Assembly: GCA_947630965.1 (NCBI GenBank)
Contig: CANRJO010000011.1
Location: 1 to 32,904 of the forward strand
Origin: an uncultured Alphaproteobacteria bacterium
Lineage (GTDB): Bacteria > Pseudomonadota > Alphaproteobacteria > RF32 > CAG-239
DNA length: 32,904 nucleotides
Direction: 5' to 3'
A model generated the notes under the pieces. The model worked only from the letters and a program-made list of their open reading frames with translations, did not search any database and was not told the origin of the DNA. Position numbers and translations under genes: made by a program. The first letter of the stretch is position 1; each line of letters starts with the position of its first letter. This document shows positions 1 through 26,950 of this stretch, one piece after another.

Positions 1-1379
1 CAATCATTGACACTACTGTTGGTGTTATAACCACTCTCGCAATCCCTTGCCGTGCATTTACCGCAAACATTCTCTCCGGAATTGGTGGAAGATTTTTCAA
101 ATGTCCAACCTTCACCTTTTTTGGTACCACAATCATCAATACCCTTCTTTTCGATGCTGTATCCATTCGGGCATGTTTTAGGCGTGCATTTACCACACAC
201 TTCGTCACCGCTCCAACCTTGTTGGCTCCATTCCCAACCGCTTTCACCGGCTTTGCCGCAGCTGCTGACATCTTTATATTTTGTCTCGTAACCACCCGTG
301 CATGCTTTCTTACTGCAACTGTAACATCTTGTGTCGCCATGATAGTTTGATGTGCCCTGATTCGTCCACCCGGCTCCCTTAGAAGCACCTGTGCCACACT
401 TGCTGACATCTTGATAATCGGTGCTTTCACCTGTCGGACAATCTTTCATGGTGCATTTGCCGCAGATTGCATTACCTGCATATTGCTCTGACTGCTCCCA
501 AGTCCAACCTTTGTTGCCACTTGAGCCGCAACTCGCTATACTTGAATATTGTGTGCTAAAACCTGGTAAACACTCTTTTGCCGTACATTTGCCGCAGGCG
601 TCATCGCCACTCCAACCGCTTTGGTTCCAAGTCCACCCCTTGGAGCCGCTATCGCCACAACTATCCACGCCTGGGTAATCTGTGCTGTAATCGCCTGAAC
701 AACTCTTTGCGGTGCATTTGCCGCAAATCTGCTCGCCGCTTTGACCTTTGCTCTCCCATGTCCAACCTTGATCTTTTGTGCGTCCACAATCCTCAATACG
801 AGCATCTGTTATGGTATAACCATCGGGGCATTGGCGGGCATAACAGGCTTCGCCCATTTGATCATACCAGTCATCACATGACCAACTTGTGATAATATCT
901 TTTGTAATATTGCACCCCGTGCAAGACTCTTTATTACCATGCGCGTGAGCCGGCACGCTGACCTTGTCTTGGCATAAATTTCTACAACTGGCATAGTGCC
1001 CGTCACAACATCTATCGCCTAACTCGCCAACGCCTTTGTTGAGATTACTCCATTGACACTCTTCGGGGTCAGGATCACAATGGCAATGATAACACTTCCG
1101 ATGATGATAATCTACCTCATCGCAAACGTAACCTTTCTCGCCCGTTAACTCTTTCGTATCACTATAACGTCCATCTTTACAGGTATATTCTTTGCACCAG
1201 ATATATTGAGAATCGAACGGACACGTAATGTAACCATCAGGGCAAAAAATCTCCTTCTCCAATTTATACCCCATTTTGGCACATTCCGGCACGGCTTTGC
1301 ACTCGTTAAAACATGCCGCTTGGACAGAATATGCTCCGGCGACCAACCCCAAAAATATGACGGCTATAAATTTACGCAT
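1..1379 (-). CDS. Secreted cysteine-rich repeat protein (5' part, runs off the left edge)
   Basis: I read 459 codons from ATG at 1379 with no stop before the window edge, so the C-terminus is missing. Residues 1-21 form a signal peptide ending in VQAA. Residues 27-67 form a module with spacing C-x5-C-x12-C-x6-C-x8-C-x4-C that contains MGY and DGYITCPFD; the gene at 25445-26617 starts with the same module. Residues 83-156 are rich in Cys and His, including HHRKCYHCHC at 92-101. From C184 come tandem units of 43-46 residues (starting at C184, C227, C270, C314, C360, C403 and C447), with consensus C-x2-G-Y-S-T...DxCG...GWTW...SGD-x2-CGKCTAK. Many disulfides in the periplasm or outside the cell are likely. 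GAGGGA lies about 8 bases upstream of the ATG. I do not recognise a named family. An adhesin or surface-structure role is a guess. Confidence 0.85.
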   Translation of the reverse strand, partial: MRKFIAVIFLGLVAGAYSVQAACFNECKAVPECAKMGYKLEKEIFCPDGYITCPFDSQYIWCKEYTCKDGRYSDTKELTGEKGYVCDEVDYHHRKCYHCHCDPDPEECQWSNLNKGVGELGDRCCDGHYASCRNLCQDKVSVPAHAHGNKESCTGCNITKDIITSWSCDDWYDQMGEACYARQCPDGYTITDARIEDCGRTKDQGWTWESKGQSGEQICGKCTAKSCSGDYSTDYPGVDSCGDSGSKGWTWNQSGWSGDDACGKCTAKECLPGFSTQYSSIASCGSSGNKGWTWEQSEQYAGNAICGKCTMKDCPTGESTDYQDVSKCGTGASKGAGWTNQGTSNYHGDTRCYSCSKKACTGGYETKYKDVSSCGKAGESGWEWSQQGWSGDEVCGKCTPKTCPNGYSIEKKGIDDCGTKKGEGWTFEKSSTNSGENVCGKCTARDCESGYNTNSSVND

Positions 1380-16565: not shown

Positions 16566-17204
16566 ATGTTAGATTTTTCAACTTTACATCAGAAAAGCTG
16601 CCAATATTTTAACATTTTTTACATTCGCGTTGAAACTTTTGCCGAATTTTTGAATAAAAAGCATATCAGTGCGAATATGCTCACGTCTTTAGGCTTGGGT
16701 TTTGCCATACTAGGGCTCAATTTTTTAGCCATGGAAAATTATTTTTTGGCTTTTTTATGTTTGGTGCTTAACCGTCTGTGTGATGTTTTAGACGGCGCAG
16801 TAGCTCGCTTTTCGCACATCAGCGCCTTCGGAATTTTTTTTGATATTTTTGCTGATTATGCAGCCGCCGCCCTTTTGATATGGGGCTTTATTCTCGGTAA
16901 CGAGGCACAAAATGCTGCGGCAGGTGCTTTTTATTTGGTCGGCTTAAATTTATCAGGCGTGGCGCTTTTAGCACTTTCTGCCATTTCCAAACAAGACTAT
17001 GAAGCTCTAAACAAAACACCTTTCAAAGTTTGCTTATGGGGCGCCGTTCAAAACGCGGATATATTCACCGCCCTAACGCTCATGTGCCTTTTGCCATTTT
17101 GGTTTATGCCCATCGCCATATTTTTCGGTTTACTCTTGTTCGGAAAAACTTTATTAATATTAAGTGGAGCCTATTGGACTTTAAAAATAAAAAAACAAAA
17201 TTGA
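16566..17204 (+). CDS. CDP-alcohol phosphatidyltransferase family protein
   Basis: Members join a CDP-linked (di)acylglycerol or alcohol with a second alcohol in the membrane. The full catalytic motif D-x2-D-G-x2-A-R-x8-G-x3-D-x3-D is present in DVLDGAVARFSH...FGIFFDIFAD (about residues 74-98). The 212-residue protein has about six hydrophobic helices. AGGAGA lies before the ATG. It is more divergent than typical PgsA or PssA, so the alcohol used cannot be told. Situated between an OpgB-like enzyme and a DsbD-like gene on the same strand. Confidence 0.88.
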   Translation: MLDFSTLHQKSCQYFNIFYIRVETFAEFLNKKHISANMLTSLGLGFAILGLNFLAMENYFLAFLCLVLNRLCDVLDGAVARFSHISAFGIFFDIFADYAAAALLIWGFILGNEAQNAAAGAFYLVGLNLSGVALLALSAISKQDYEALNKTPFKVCLWGAVQNADIFTALTLMCLLPFWFMPIAIFFGLLLFGKTLLILSGAYWTLKIKKQN

Positions 17205-17212
17205 GCTTGAAG

Positions 17213-18964
17213 ATGAAAAAAAAGTTTTTTGGGATTGTGTTGTTTTTAGCGCTGATGATAAACGGAAGCGCTTTTGCAGCATGGCAAAACAACGAAATCC
17301 GGATTGATGCGTTCACAACGCCAAACAAAGTTTTGCTTAAATTAGAGCCTTTGAACGGCGGGCATATTTTATGGGACAACCCCGGCGATTTAGGCACCCC
17401 GACCACATTTGAATGGAACACGCCGGCCAAACGCCTCAATGAAACAACCCCGCAGAAGTTTATATACGATGACATCATCGGACAATACGGCTATGAAACG
17501 CCGGCTTATTATTTGTTTGAGCTTTCGGCACCAGAAAAGGCAGAAGTGAAAATCAGCTGGACAATTTGCAAAGAAGAGTGCATTCCCCAAAGTACTGATT
17601 TAAAAATAACACCCAATCCGAACACGGCAGAATTTGAAAAAGCCGAGAAAACATTTCCTCAAAATATAAATGAAAATTTGACAGTTCGTTTAGAAAATGA
17701 AAAGCTGATTTTAGAGTTGCCCAAATCGGTTAAGCCTGAAGATAAGGTCCATTTTGTTCCTGATGAAAAGGGGATTATCTCGCCGCTTACAGAACAAATA
17801 ATAAATCGCAAAAACAATGGATTAAAGCTCAAAATTGAATCAGAATATGAAGCACCAACACCCTCACGCGGGCTCTTGTTCATCAACAGCAAGGCTTGGC
17901 AGGTAACACTACAAAAGAGCATACCTGAAGAACCTTGGGCGCTATTACTGCTCTTGGCTTTTTTAGGTGGCATCATCTTAAATTTTATGCCGTGCGTTTT
18001 CCCGATCTTAAGTCTGAAGGCGCTAGCCTTAACAAAGACGGGTAAAAACCCGAAGGATGGTTTGCTTTATATGGCAGGCGTTTTAACCTGCTTTGCCCTG
18101 ATGGCAACGGTTTTGTGTTTGTTACGCCGCTCGGGCGCCGCTTTAGGTTGGGGTTTTCAGTTGCGCTCACCTATTTTTGTAAGCCTAATGCTGTTCATTT
18201 TTATTGTTGTATTTCTTTTGATGACGGACATCATCAAAATCAAAGGGCGTTTGCAAACCCTGTTTGATCGTTTTGCTGCGGCAAACGCGTTTTTAACGGG
18301 TTTATTCGCGGTTTTGATAGCAAGCCCCTGTAGCGGCCCCTTATTAGGCGCAGCGGTCGGCTATGCCCTACTCCGTTCGTCACAAGCCTGCCTGCCGATT
18401 TTTTTGAGCATGGGCTTAGGTTACGCCCTGCCTTTTACCTTGCTAGAAGTTTTTCCGCAAAGCCTGCGACGCATTTTACCGGCGCCCGGACGTTGGATGG
18501 GACATTTAAAGAAAATTTTAGCCATTCCCGTTTTATTAACCTGCTTATGGCTCGTATGGCTTTTGTACGGTCTGATTTCTGATGCCCGAAAAGAAACGCA
18601 CGGACTTTGGCAACCTTATGATCAAAGCAAAATTGAAAATCTGGTTGCAGATGGAAAACCTGTTTTGATTGACTTTACCGCAAAATGGTGTTTAACATGT
18701 TTATTAAATGAGAAAGCCGTTTTGGAATCTGCAACTTTTGAAAAAACGGTCAAAACATGCGGTATAGCGCTTTTTAAGGCGGACTGGACACCGCAAAGCG
18801 AAAGTGTTACCAAGGCTTTAGAAAGTTATGGTCGCGCAAGCGTCCCGCTTTACGTATATTATCCGTCCAAAGGAAAGTATGTGATCTTACCGCAACTCTT
18901 AACAATAAACATATTGGAAGACTATTTGAATGACTGCTTTGACAACACTGAAACATCAAATTAA
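17213..18964 (+). CDS. DsbD/ScsB-type thiol:disulfide interchange protein
   Basis: It carries electrons from cytoplasmic thioredoxin across the membrane to reduce periplasmic disulfides. From ATG 17213 the 583-residue protein has a signal peptide (1-22, ending SAFA), an N-terminal immunoglobulin-like domain with C119-x3-C123 (CKEEC), a membrane domain of about eight helices with C261 (FMPCVFPILS) and C373 (ASPCSGPLLG), and a C-terminal thioredoxin domain with C493-L-T-C496. All three redox pairs are present. The open frame extends upstream to 17030 within the previous gene, but the signal peptide fixes the start. No strong Shine-Dalgarno is seen, so it may rely on coupling with the gene before it. 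Confidence 0.93.
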   Translation: MKKKFFGIVLFLALMINGSAFAAWQNNEIRIDAFTTPNKVLLKLEPLNGGHILWDNPGDLGTPTTFEWNTPAKRLNETTPQKFIYDDIIGQYGYETPAYYLFELSAPEKAEVKISWTICKEECIPQSTDLKITPNPNTAEFEKAEKTFPQNINENLTVRLENEKLILELPKSVKPEDKVHFVPDEKGIISPLTEQIINRKNNGLKLKIESEYEAPTPSRGLLFINSKAWQVTLQKSIPEEPWALLLLLAFLGGIILNFMPCVFPILSLKALALTKTGKNPKDGLLYMAGVLTCFALMATVLCLLRRSGAALGWGFQLRSPIFVSLMLFIFIVVFLLMTDIIKIKGRLQTLFDRFAAANAFLTGLFAVLIASPCSGPLLGAAVGYALLRSSQACLPIFLSMGLGYALPFTLLEVFPQSLRRILPAPGRWMGHLKKILAIPVLLTCLWLVWLLYGLISDARKETHGLWQPYDQSKIENLVADGKPVLIDFTAKWCLTCLLNEKAVLESATFEKTVKTCGIALFKADWTPQSESVTKALESYGRASVPLYVYYPSKGKYVILPQLLTINILEDYLNDCFDNTETSN

Positions 18965-25444: not shown

Positions 25445-26617
25445 TTAATGTTCGGCTTGCCACGAATCAGACGTTGGAACATCTGATAAGAGTATTGTTG
25501 CTTCTTTGACAGGGTGATATGTTTTGCCCTCCAAGACCAAGGTGTCGGCTGTGTTATGCGCTGTAATATATACGTTAGCTCCACCCAGCTTCATAATCTC
25601 CAAATATGCCGGCGCGGTGGAAGTACCGCTTAAAATAAAAGTTGCTTTTTTACCGTCCATATTCACACCGTTTTGAGCATTCAACACAACTTTTGATCCT
25701 TCACCAATTGTCAACATACTTTCTGCATTGTACGCATTACCATAGAAAACGTAGCTTGGTGTGCTAAATGTTAATTCGGCATGCCGAAGCGTGAGATGTG
25801 AACGTTTCATCAGAACACCTGTAGATATGACATTTAATGTTGAGTTCTCAACCAAAACCGTGGAATCGCCTATCAAATCTTTTGAAGTAGATACTGTGAC
25901 TTGAGCATCTTTAAACCGAAGATTGTGAGCATAATATGCCATTTGATAACCTTTGAGCGTAAATTGCATATTTCCCGATAAGGTCAAAACACCTTCCCCG
26001 CTAAAAATACCGGCATTATGACTGCCTAGTTGTTCAGTTATGGTCAAATTATTGACTTCTGCTTCATTGCCGCTATTTGCATTAATTAGAGTTACAGACT
26101 CCATCCCTTCGCCATTTGTAACAAGAGAAAGGTTTTGAAGTTTCGTTTGCGAGGTCAGATAAAATTTTTTAGCTCCGGGGATAGTCAGCATATGATTAGC
26201 ACCGTCAATCGTTGTATCACCTGACACCCAAAAATTAGAAACATCTGTCATGGTGATGTCGTTTCGCATGGTAACGACTTTGCATTGACGGGTTGTGACA
26301 AGGTCAGTTAGGCTTTGGGCATCGGTTGCCAGGCATGGTTTTTGACAAAGCGTCATGGCGGGATCTGATTTACACGAAATAACTGATGCACACCATGATG
26401 TTTTGTCGGATGATGTAAACCCCCACGCCGCACATTTGTAATTGACGCATTTTTTATAAGTTTTATCAAAAGGGCAAAAAATATAGCCATCATCTTTGCA
26501 ATTTGGATCTGATTCGGTGGAATAACCCATTTGAGAACAATCGGGCGTTTCCCGACACTCAACCGCATTCGCCGCATTTGCAAACATCAACACCAACAAA
26601 ACCAATAAATACCGCAT
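25445..26617 (-). CDS. Secreted protein: cysteine-rich module plus beta-helix
   Basis: The 390-residue precursor has a signal peptide (1-18, ending ANA). Residues 21-62 form the module C-x5-C-x12-C-x7-C-x8-C-x4-C with MGY, DGYIFCPFD and a following Y; it aligns closely with residues 27-67 of the left-edge gene. Four to six more cysteines follow (76-112). From about residue 110 to the end, cysteine stops and short beta-strands with repeated hydrophobic-polar pattern appear (TMTDVSNFWVSGDTTIDGAN, then LTLSGNMQFTLKG, STVLVENSTLNVIS), suggesting a right-handed beta-solenoid. There is no autotransporter barrel and no LPXTG or lipobox. AAGGAAAAGGT precedes the ATG. I do not recognise a named family; a surface or secreted adhesin is a guess. 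Confidence 0.85.
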   Translation of the reverse strand: MRYLLVLLVLMFANAANAVECRETPDCSQMGYSTESDPNCKDDGYIFCPFDKTYKKCVNYKCAAWGFTSSDKTSWCASVISCKSDPAMTLCQKPCLATDAQSLTDLVTTRQCKVVTMRNDITMTDVSNFWVSGDTTIDGANHMLTIPGAKKFYLTSQTKLQNLSLVTNGEGMESVTLINANSGNEAEVNNLTITEQLGSHNAGIFSGEGVLTLSGNMQFTLKGYQMAYYAHNLRFKDAQVTVSTSKDLIGDSTVLVENSTLNVISTGVLMKRSHLTLRHAELTFSTPSYVFYGNAYNAESMLTIGEGSKVVLNAQNGVNMDGKKATFILSGTSTAPAYLEIMKLGGANVYITAHNTADTLVLEGKTYHPVKEATILLSDVPTSDSWQAEH

Positions 26618-26791: not shown

Positions 26792-26905
26792 GCAATTTAA
26801 AGGTACCTTTAAATTGCTATGGTTTTTAAAGTATGCGGATGTTGATTCTGCGGGATTTTTTGGGCTTGACAACGCATCAAATTTAAGGTACCTTAAAATT
26901 GCTTT
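26792..26905. repeat. GGTACC inverted-repeat element, copy 2
   Basis: The left arm sits in a perfect 28-base palindrome (26791-26818) centred on GGTACC at 26802-26807. The right arm, around AAGGTACCTT at 26885-26894 with flanking AAATTTAAGG and TTAAAATTGC, is an imperfect inverted copy of the left. The interior contains GCTTGACAAC, as in copy 1 at 1593-1689. The element lies about 175 bases upstream of the minus-strand cysteine-rich gene at 26617. Confidence 0.6.
26866..26894 (+). promoter_or_regulatory. Candidate sigma70 promoter in GGTACC element, copy 2
   Basis: TTGACA (26866-26871) and TACCTT (26889-26894) with a 17-base spacer, identical in design to 1654-1682. No plus-strand gene follows: the predicted start near 26902 is only about 20 bases from the terminator hairpin. 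A short RNA of about 50 bases is possible. Confidence 0.4.
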
Positions 26906-26916
26906 ATTAAAGCAAC

Positions 26917-26950
26917 AAAAAACGTCCGAAGAAATCGGACGTTTTTTTTA
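26917..26950. terminator. Bidirectional intrinsic terminator
   Basis: AACGTCCGA (26921-26929), loop AGAAA, TCGGACGTT (26935-26943), followed by T-run to 26949 on the plus strand and by a T-run (complement of the A-run 26917-26920) on the minus strand. On the minus strand it is the first good terminator after rbfA, so it likely ends the rimP-rbfA operon. Confidence 0.85.

Follow-up and report, generated by a model that had tools for sequence, protein, structure and literature searches.

In Bacteroides fragilis, at least 13 regions are targets of the DNA invertase Mpi (PMC5903667), whose repeat has the sequence ARACGTTCGTN (PMC8375218). The switches of B. intestinalis are 183–186 bp (PMC8375218). 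One survey found no promoter-inversion systems in the four Alphaproteobacteria datasets that it tested (PMC5903667).

Here we describe a candidate system of this kind in an alphaproteobacterial genome of 1.52 Mb that is 94% complete (G000), together with its counterpart in a sister species (G001). The stretch of DNA analyzed, referred to as the window, is 32,904 bases long. As in the Mpi invertible promoters of B. fragilis and its relatives, many dispersed short promoter segments lie between inverted repeats, surface-related genes are found downstream, and an Mpi-family serine invertase apparently acts in trans (PMC5903667, PMC8375218). The core of the sister-species box also appears nearly the same as that of the Mpi repeat (PMC8375218). 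The present system differs from Bacteroides Mpi in occurring in Alphaproteobacteria and in serving one protein family, rather than capsule and other loci. It has ~57 elements against at least 13 regions, a spacing of 73–85 bp against 183–186 bp in B. intestinalis, and a −10 hexamer within the box, and its inversion is deduced from assemblies. We consider it probable that a ~60-member family of adhesin-like proteins is under promoter inversion, with its cassettes homogenized within species. If the flipping is real, this would be a large promoter-inversion system in Alphaproteobacteria, and an Mpi-like switch devoted to a single adhesin repertoire in the 1.5-Mb genome of a gut bacterium.

A cysteine-rich module common to a large protein family

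Two genes on the minus strand of the window encode proteins with related N-termini. P0002 (25445–26617; 390 amino acids; class A, defined below) is composed of a signal peptide, a ten-cysteine module and a β-solenoid passenger. P0001 (3–1379; 459 amino acids; class C) is composed of a signal peptide, the module and Cys/Trp repeats, and is cut by the contig end, since the window is an entire contig (G000:C11, 32,904 bases). A sequence-only reading of the window had proposed that both proteins carry, directly after the signal peptide, a module of six cysteines with nearly identical spacing and with MGY, DGYI and CPFD in common. Both open reading frames bear this out, the spacing being C21-x5-C27-x12-C40-x7-C48-x8-C57-x4-C62 in P0002 and C27-x5-C33-x12-C46-x6-C53-x8-C62-x4-C67 in P0001. 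The two modules are 38% identical over 68 amino acids, far above chance (BLASTP E 9e-15; phmmer 6e-14). In the main classes of the family, however, the module is longer than first described and has ten conserved cysteines, which run from C21 to C95 in P0002. The signal peptide and module of P0002 (residues 1–98; 26324–26617, minus strand) are the part common to the whole family, and in P0001 the signal peptide and six-cysteine part span residues 1–67 (1179–1379, minus strand).

The module had been left without a named domain, and our searches agree. Matches to Pfam were at chance level only (Nodulin_late, E 0.03), no NCBIfam family was found and no PDB sequence matched. A known domain was rejected on these searches, which matched no curated family or solved structure. 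The sequence-only reading also suggested a common role in targeting, anchoring or assembly, which the module may have. Elsewhere in the window, positions 17030–18964 encode a DsbD-like thiol:disulfide interchange protein (read from sequence), a plausible aid to Cys-rich exported proteins.

Both genes first noticed are real members, but two was an undercount: ~60 genes with a signal peptide and the cysteine module are dispersed in the source genome. A search of the whole genome with P0002 found 64 places, which we assigned, as an interpretation of the matched ranges, to class A (18 full-length matches, P0002 counted), class B (34 matches over approximately residues 1–100 only), class C (7) and others (5). 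The sister species has 64 module matches. A hidden Markov model built from 13 modules recovered many signal-peptide proteins with the module and varied C-termini. This supports the earlier proposal of a modular signal-peptide family in which one N-terminal module is joined to differing passengers, and the family is large. Within the same taxonomic family, 83 of 152 genomes gave a match to the model. Among 385 genomes drawn from the class, five had a module match, all five within that same taxonomic family and none outside it. The weak matches seen in distant genera probably represent divergent modules, and a search of viral contigs for the module found none. At L044:3269-5597, two adjoining genes carry a shorter, weakly related cysteine module that includes CPFD and C-x-LNYT repeats; they may represent an older branch of the family.

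Passenger domains and structure models

Three kinds of passenger follow the module. Class A has a β-solenoid, class B has Lcl_C/DUF1566, and class C has Cys/Trp repeats ending in Lcl_C. Lcl_C/DUF1566 domains form the C-termini of the class B proteins and of some in class C. The passenger of P0002 had been read as a cysteine-free β-helix. It is a β-solenoid but not strictly free of cysteine, C112 being invariant in class A. A relative sharing the N-terminus of P0001 is 1647 amino acids long and has three Lcl_C domains. The class C protein at L053 scored 85 bits to Lcl_C (PF07603), above the curated cut-off of 34.9 bits, in three stretches (E 5e-24 overall), and a class B member matching PF07603 scored 23.5 bits, below that cut-off.

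AlphaFold2 models reached a mean pLDDT of 85 for class A and 89 for class B. The best solved neighbors in Foldseek were the Lactobacillus reuteri SRRP adhesin (E 3e-3, TM 0.44–0.49) for the class A model and, for the class B model, a fimbrial protein of B. ovatus (E 4e-5) together with the C-terminal domain of Legionella Lcl (E 0.01). Class A has the β-solenoid fold alone in common with the SRRP adhesin, at 15% identity that is not significant by sequence, and its proteins come from a different organism with a different export route. In Legionella Lcl, the C-terminal domain (PF07603) is joined to a collagen-like stalk. The likeness to it lies in the class B passengers and class C ends, whereas Lcl_C is here joined to the family-specific cysteine module. 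Together, the models suggest that the passengers are adhesin-like, short of proving adhesion, and the family proteins are presumably displayed at the cell surface.

The C-type-lectin fold is linked to the targets of diversity-generating retroelements. Class B resembles such targets in its Lcl_C-like passengers and highly variable C-termini, and differs in the lack of a reverse transcriptase in the assembly. A diversity-generating retroelement was ruled out, as the source genome, at 94% completeness, gave no reverse transcriptase (PF00078) match.

A two-box element upstream of family genes

The conserved unit exceeds the module and also takes in ~350 bp of upstream DNA, where there is an apparently invertible promoter element. 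The element is composed of two palindromic boxes with a GGTACC core, positioned 73 or 83–85 bp apart upstream of family genes in the source genome. A flank script located it upstream of 49 of the 52 complete class A and B genes, 46 forward and 3 reversed. Genome-wide, the two-box pattern occurs 57 times, compared to 0 for a control. The architecture in the sister species is the same, but with SGTACS, that is, (C/G)GTAC(C/G), as the core. The two-box pattern was absent from the 11 genomes of the taxonomic family searched outside the genus. A search for exact 10-bp arms found no comparable inverted-repeat pair ahead of the module genes of other genera, and the element therefore looks genus-specific.

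Both window genes have the element in the forward, common orientation. The boxes of the candidate invertible promoter element of P0002 are at 26802–26807 and 26887–26892, 85 bp apart, and those of P0001 are at 1602–1607 and 1675–1680, 73 bp apart. Just outside the P0002 distal box is a terminator-like hairpin with A and T runs (26917–26949; AAAAAACGTCCGAAGAAATCGGACGTTTTTTTT). Such hairpins lie 16–28 bp beyond the distal box in 21 of 48 elements in the source genome and in 3 of 40 in the sister species, and are absent in shuffles. They were excluded from the core model because they are common in one species but rare in the other. Four elements in the source genome without a class were read individually. 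Two are at contig ends with a class C leader and one precedes a truncated class B gene. The fourth (L173:1668-1756; G000:C8:32167-32255) has an unrelated inner sequence and precedes an opposite-strand gene for a different secreted protein; the switch may therefore also serve genes without the module.

The element contains a putative promoter, called by consensus only. In all 91 clustered elements, which fall into six sequence groups less than 70% identical, a spacer of exactly 17 bp separates TTGACA from a box TAC, and the −10 of this TTGACA-N17-TAC promoter falls within the box. In the P0002 element, TTGACA (26866–26871) is followed after 17 bp by TACCTT (26889–26894), so that the promoter-like sequence (26866–26894, plus strand) points away from P0002. 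The P0001 element has the same arrangement, with TTGACA (1654–1659), 17 bp and TACCTT (1677–1682) pointing away from P0001 (1654–1682, plus strand). As a −10, TACCTT fits the general consensus only weakly. Of 51 elements in the source genome, 46 have the promoter directed away from the gene, as do 39 of 41 in the sister species. This orientation, found at most loci, would be OFF, and a promoter directed into the gene, found at few loci, would be ON. Fourteen sister loci additionally have a −35 matching at five of six positions and directed at the gene, and 'OFF' may therefore mean 'weak'.

The boxes are near-perfect palindromes, and the spacing classes of 73 and 83–85 bp differ by about one helical turn. 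These features, and the single orientation at most loci, would also fit paired operators of a transcription factor, in which two bound dimers, spaced by ~7 or 8 helical turns, hold the promoter in a loop, the loci form one large regulon, and reversed segments are old static rearrangements. We consider this unlikely. It does not predict reversed inner segments between normally ordered flanks, which are clear at three loci, and it is disfavored by the Mpi-family invertases encoded in the genome and by the resemblance of the sister box to the known Mpi repeat.

Reversed copies of the inner segment

The segment between the boxes is reverse-complemented at L010 (C31), L039 (C37) and L009 minus (C19) in the source genome, and at L111+7961 (C22) in the sister species. 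After reverse-complementing, these segments are 97, 91, 96 and 97% identical, respectively, to another locus. Reversed loci are few (3 of 49 in the source genome and 1 of 40 in the sister species). The outer flanks scored higher in the normal than in the swapped arrangement at L010 (55.0 versus 28.1), L039 (50.7 versus 19.0) and L111 (37.9 versus −13.7), while those of L009 were ambiguous (32.9 normal versus 30.8 swapped). The second box of L039 is GGTACT. For two elements serving the opposite strand, the flank scores go the other way, favoring the swapped arrangement. The distal elements at L011 and L111+749 were rejected as reversed copies, as the flank test shows entire elements on the opposite strand, and the one at L011 accompanies a divergent class C gene. 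We infer that the reversed copies arose by DNA inversion at the boxes, based on orientations compared across loci in assemblies, where both were never seen at one and the same locus. Flipping may be ongoing in living cells.

Candidate invertases of the Mpi family

Three serine recombinases of ~200 amino acids in the source genome scored 309, 282 and 281 bits against NCBIfam NF009949, for which the cut-off for Mpi-family master DNA invertases is 272 bits. The enzyme encoded on C35 has a sister homologue that is 84% identical and adjoins an 85% identical pfkA-like gene. Relatives without the two-box element also encode such recombinases. The sister-species box, AAACGTACGT, is one base off the Mpi repeat ARACGTTCGTN, and the GGTACC core of the source genome is further away. 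At L153:5211-5822 (minus strand) and L155:2658-3254 (plus strand), diverged paralogues lie directly behind two Mpi-family invertase genes, beside sugar-modifying genes. In both, the RVSTD stretch that carries the catalytic serine is missing, and the paralogue that was scored reached 50 bits, far short of the cut-off of 272. These paralogues are possibly inactive partners or regulators.

Nearly all family genes begin with a common 5′ cassette, composed of a boxed promoter segment of 73–85 bp, a leader, the signal peptide and the Cys-rich module, followed by a varied passenger. Under promoter inversion, a Mpi-type serine DNA invertase, acting in trans, would flip the boxed segment, the box itself supplying the −10 of a strong TTGACA-N17-TACC promoter. 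Each cell would then make a small, changing subset of the family proteins. Cassettes stay similar within each species, probably through gene conversion among loci. The full combination, in which a Mpi-type invertase runs ~57 very short switches with the −10 within the recombination site, few adhesins are made per cell, and the cassette is converted while passengers keep their own history, is a tentative proposal to which we give somewhat less than an even chance.

Inverted repeats that are short, near-perfect and close together favor template switching and RecA recombination. The boxes have these properties, and the inner segment might invert through such processes with no dedicated enzyme. 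We regard this as improbable, as it leaves unexplained the box core kept in ~57 copies, its likeness to the Mpi repeat and the spacing classes. The 73–85 bp between boxes is short compared to the 183–186 bp of known Bacteroides switches (PMC8375218), which counts against the proposed promoter inversion, as do the small number of reversed loci, the ambiguous flanks of L009, the recombinases of relatives without the element, the weak −10 and the gene-directed −35 of 14 sister loci.

Apparent concerted evolution of the 5′ cassette

Module and passenger were compared between the species in 20 pairs that are reciprocal best by passenger. Passengers are 44–96% identical (18 of 20 above 60%) and modules 47–70%, with between-species identity jumping around residues 90–120. 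Within each genome the pattern is reversed, as modules average 66–78% identity and passengers 33–39%. Because passengers are mostly above 60% identical between species and modules mostly 50–60%, the 5′ cassette appears to evolve in concert. The greater likeness of modules within a species than between orthologues suggests that conversion or movement affects the cassette as a whole. At L002/L103, alignment holds in the upstream flank (92%) and across the gene and its downstream flank (85%) but not from −262 to −10. In four class C loci, a stretch of DNA that starts ~310 bp ahead of the ATG and extends into the gene is 91–99% identical, and the outer flanks differ. The system makes it testable whether promoter, signal peptide and module undergo joint conversion across ~60 loci as passengers follow separate histories, and why a species keeps one module kind.

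Were the module an ordinary conserved secreted domain spread by duplication, with a normal promoter copied along, upstream DNA and module would be shared together, as they are. This account predicts the same history for module and passenger, and is highly improbable because their identities differ (passengers 60–96% and modules mostly 53–61% between species, against 66–78% for modules within a genome); the reversed segments are also left unexplained by it.

On the evolutionary point only, passengers could instead have been transferred between species and captured behind resident cassettes. Some passengers are 91–96% identical between species, compared to 74–85% for the cell-division genes of the window, and L010 is mixed, its passenger matching L094 and its downstream flank L097. 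Other neighboring genes, however, are up to 100% identical between species, including some flanking genes at 95–100%, and syntenic pairs have alignable flanks beside a diverged 5′ region (L002/L103, L036/L123, L024/L103). As an alternative to within-species conversion of the cassette, we find transfer rather unlikely, though both processes may be acting. At L172:532-1137, the element is followed by a class B gene without its module, a decaying family member.
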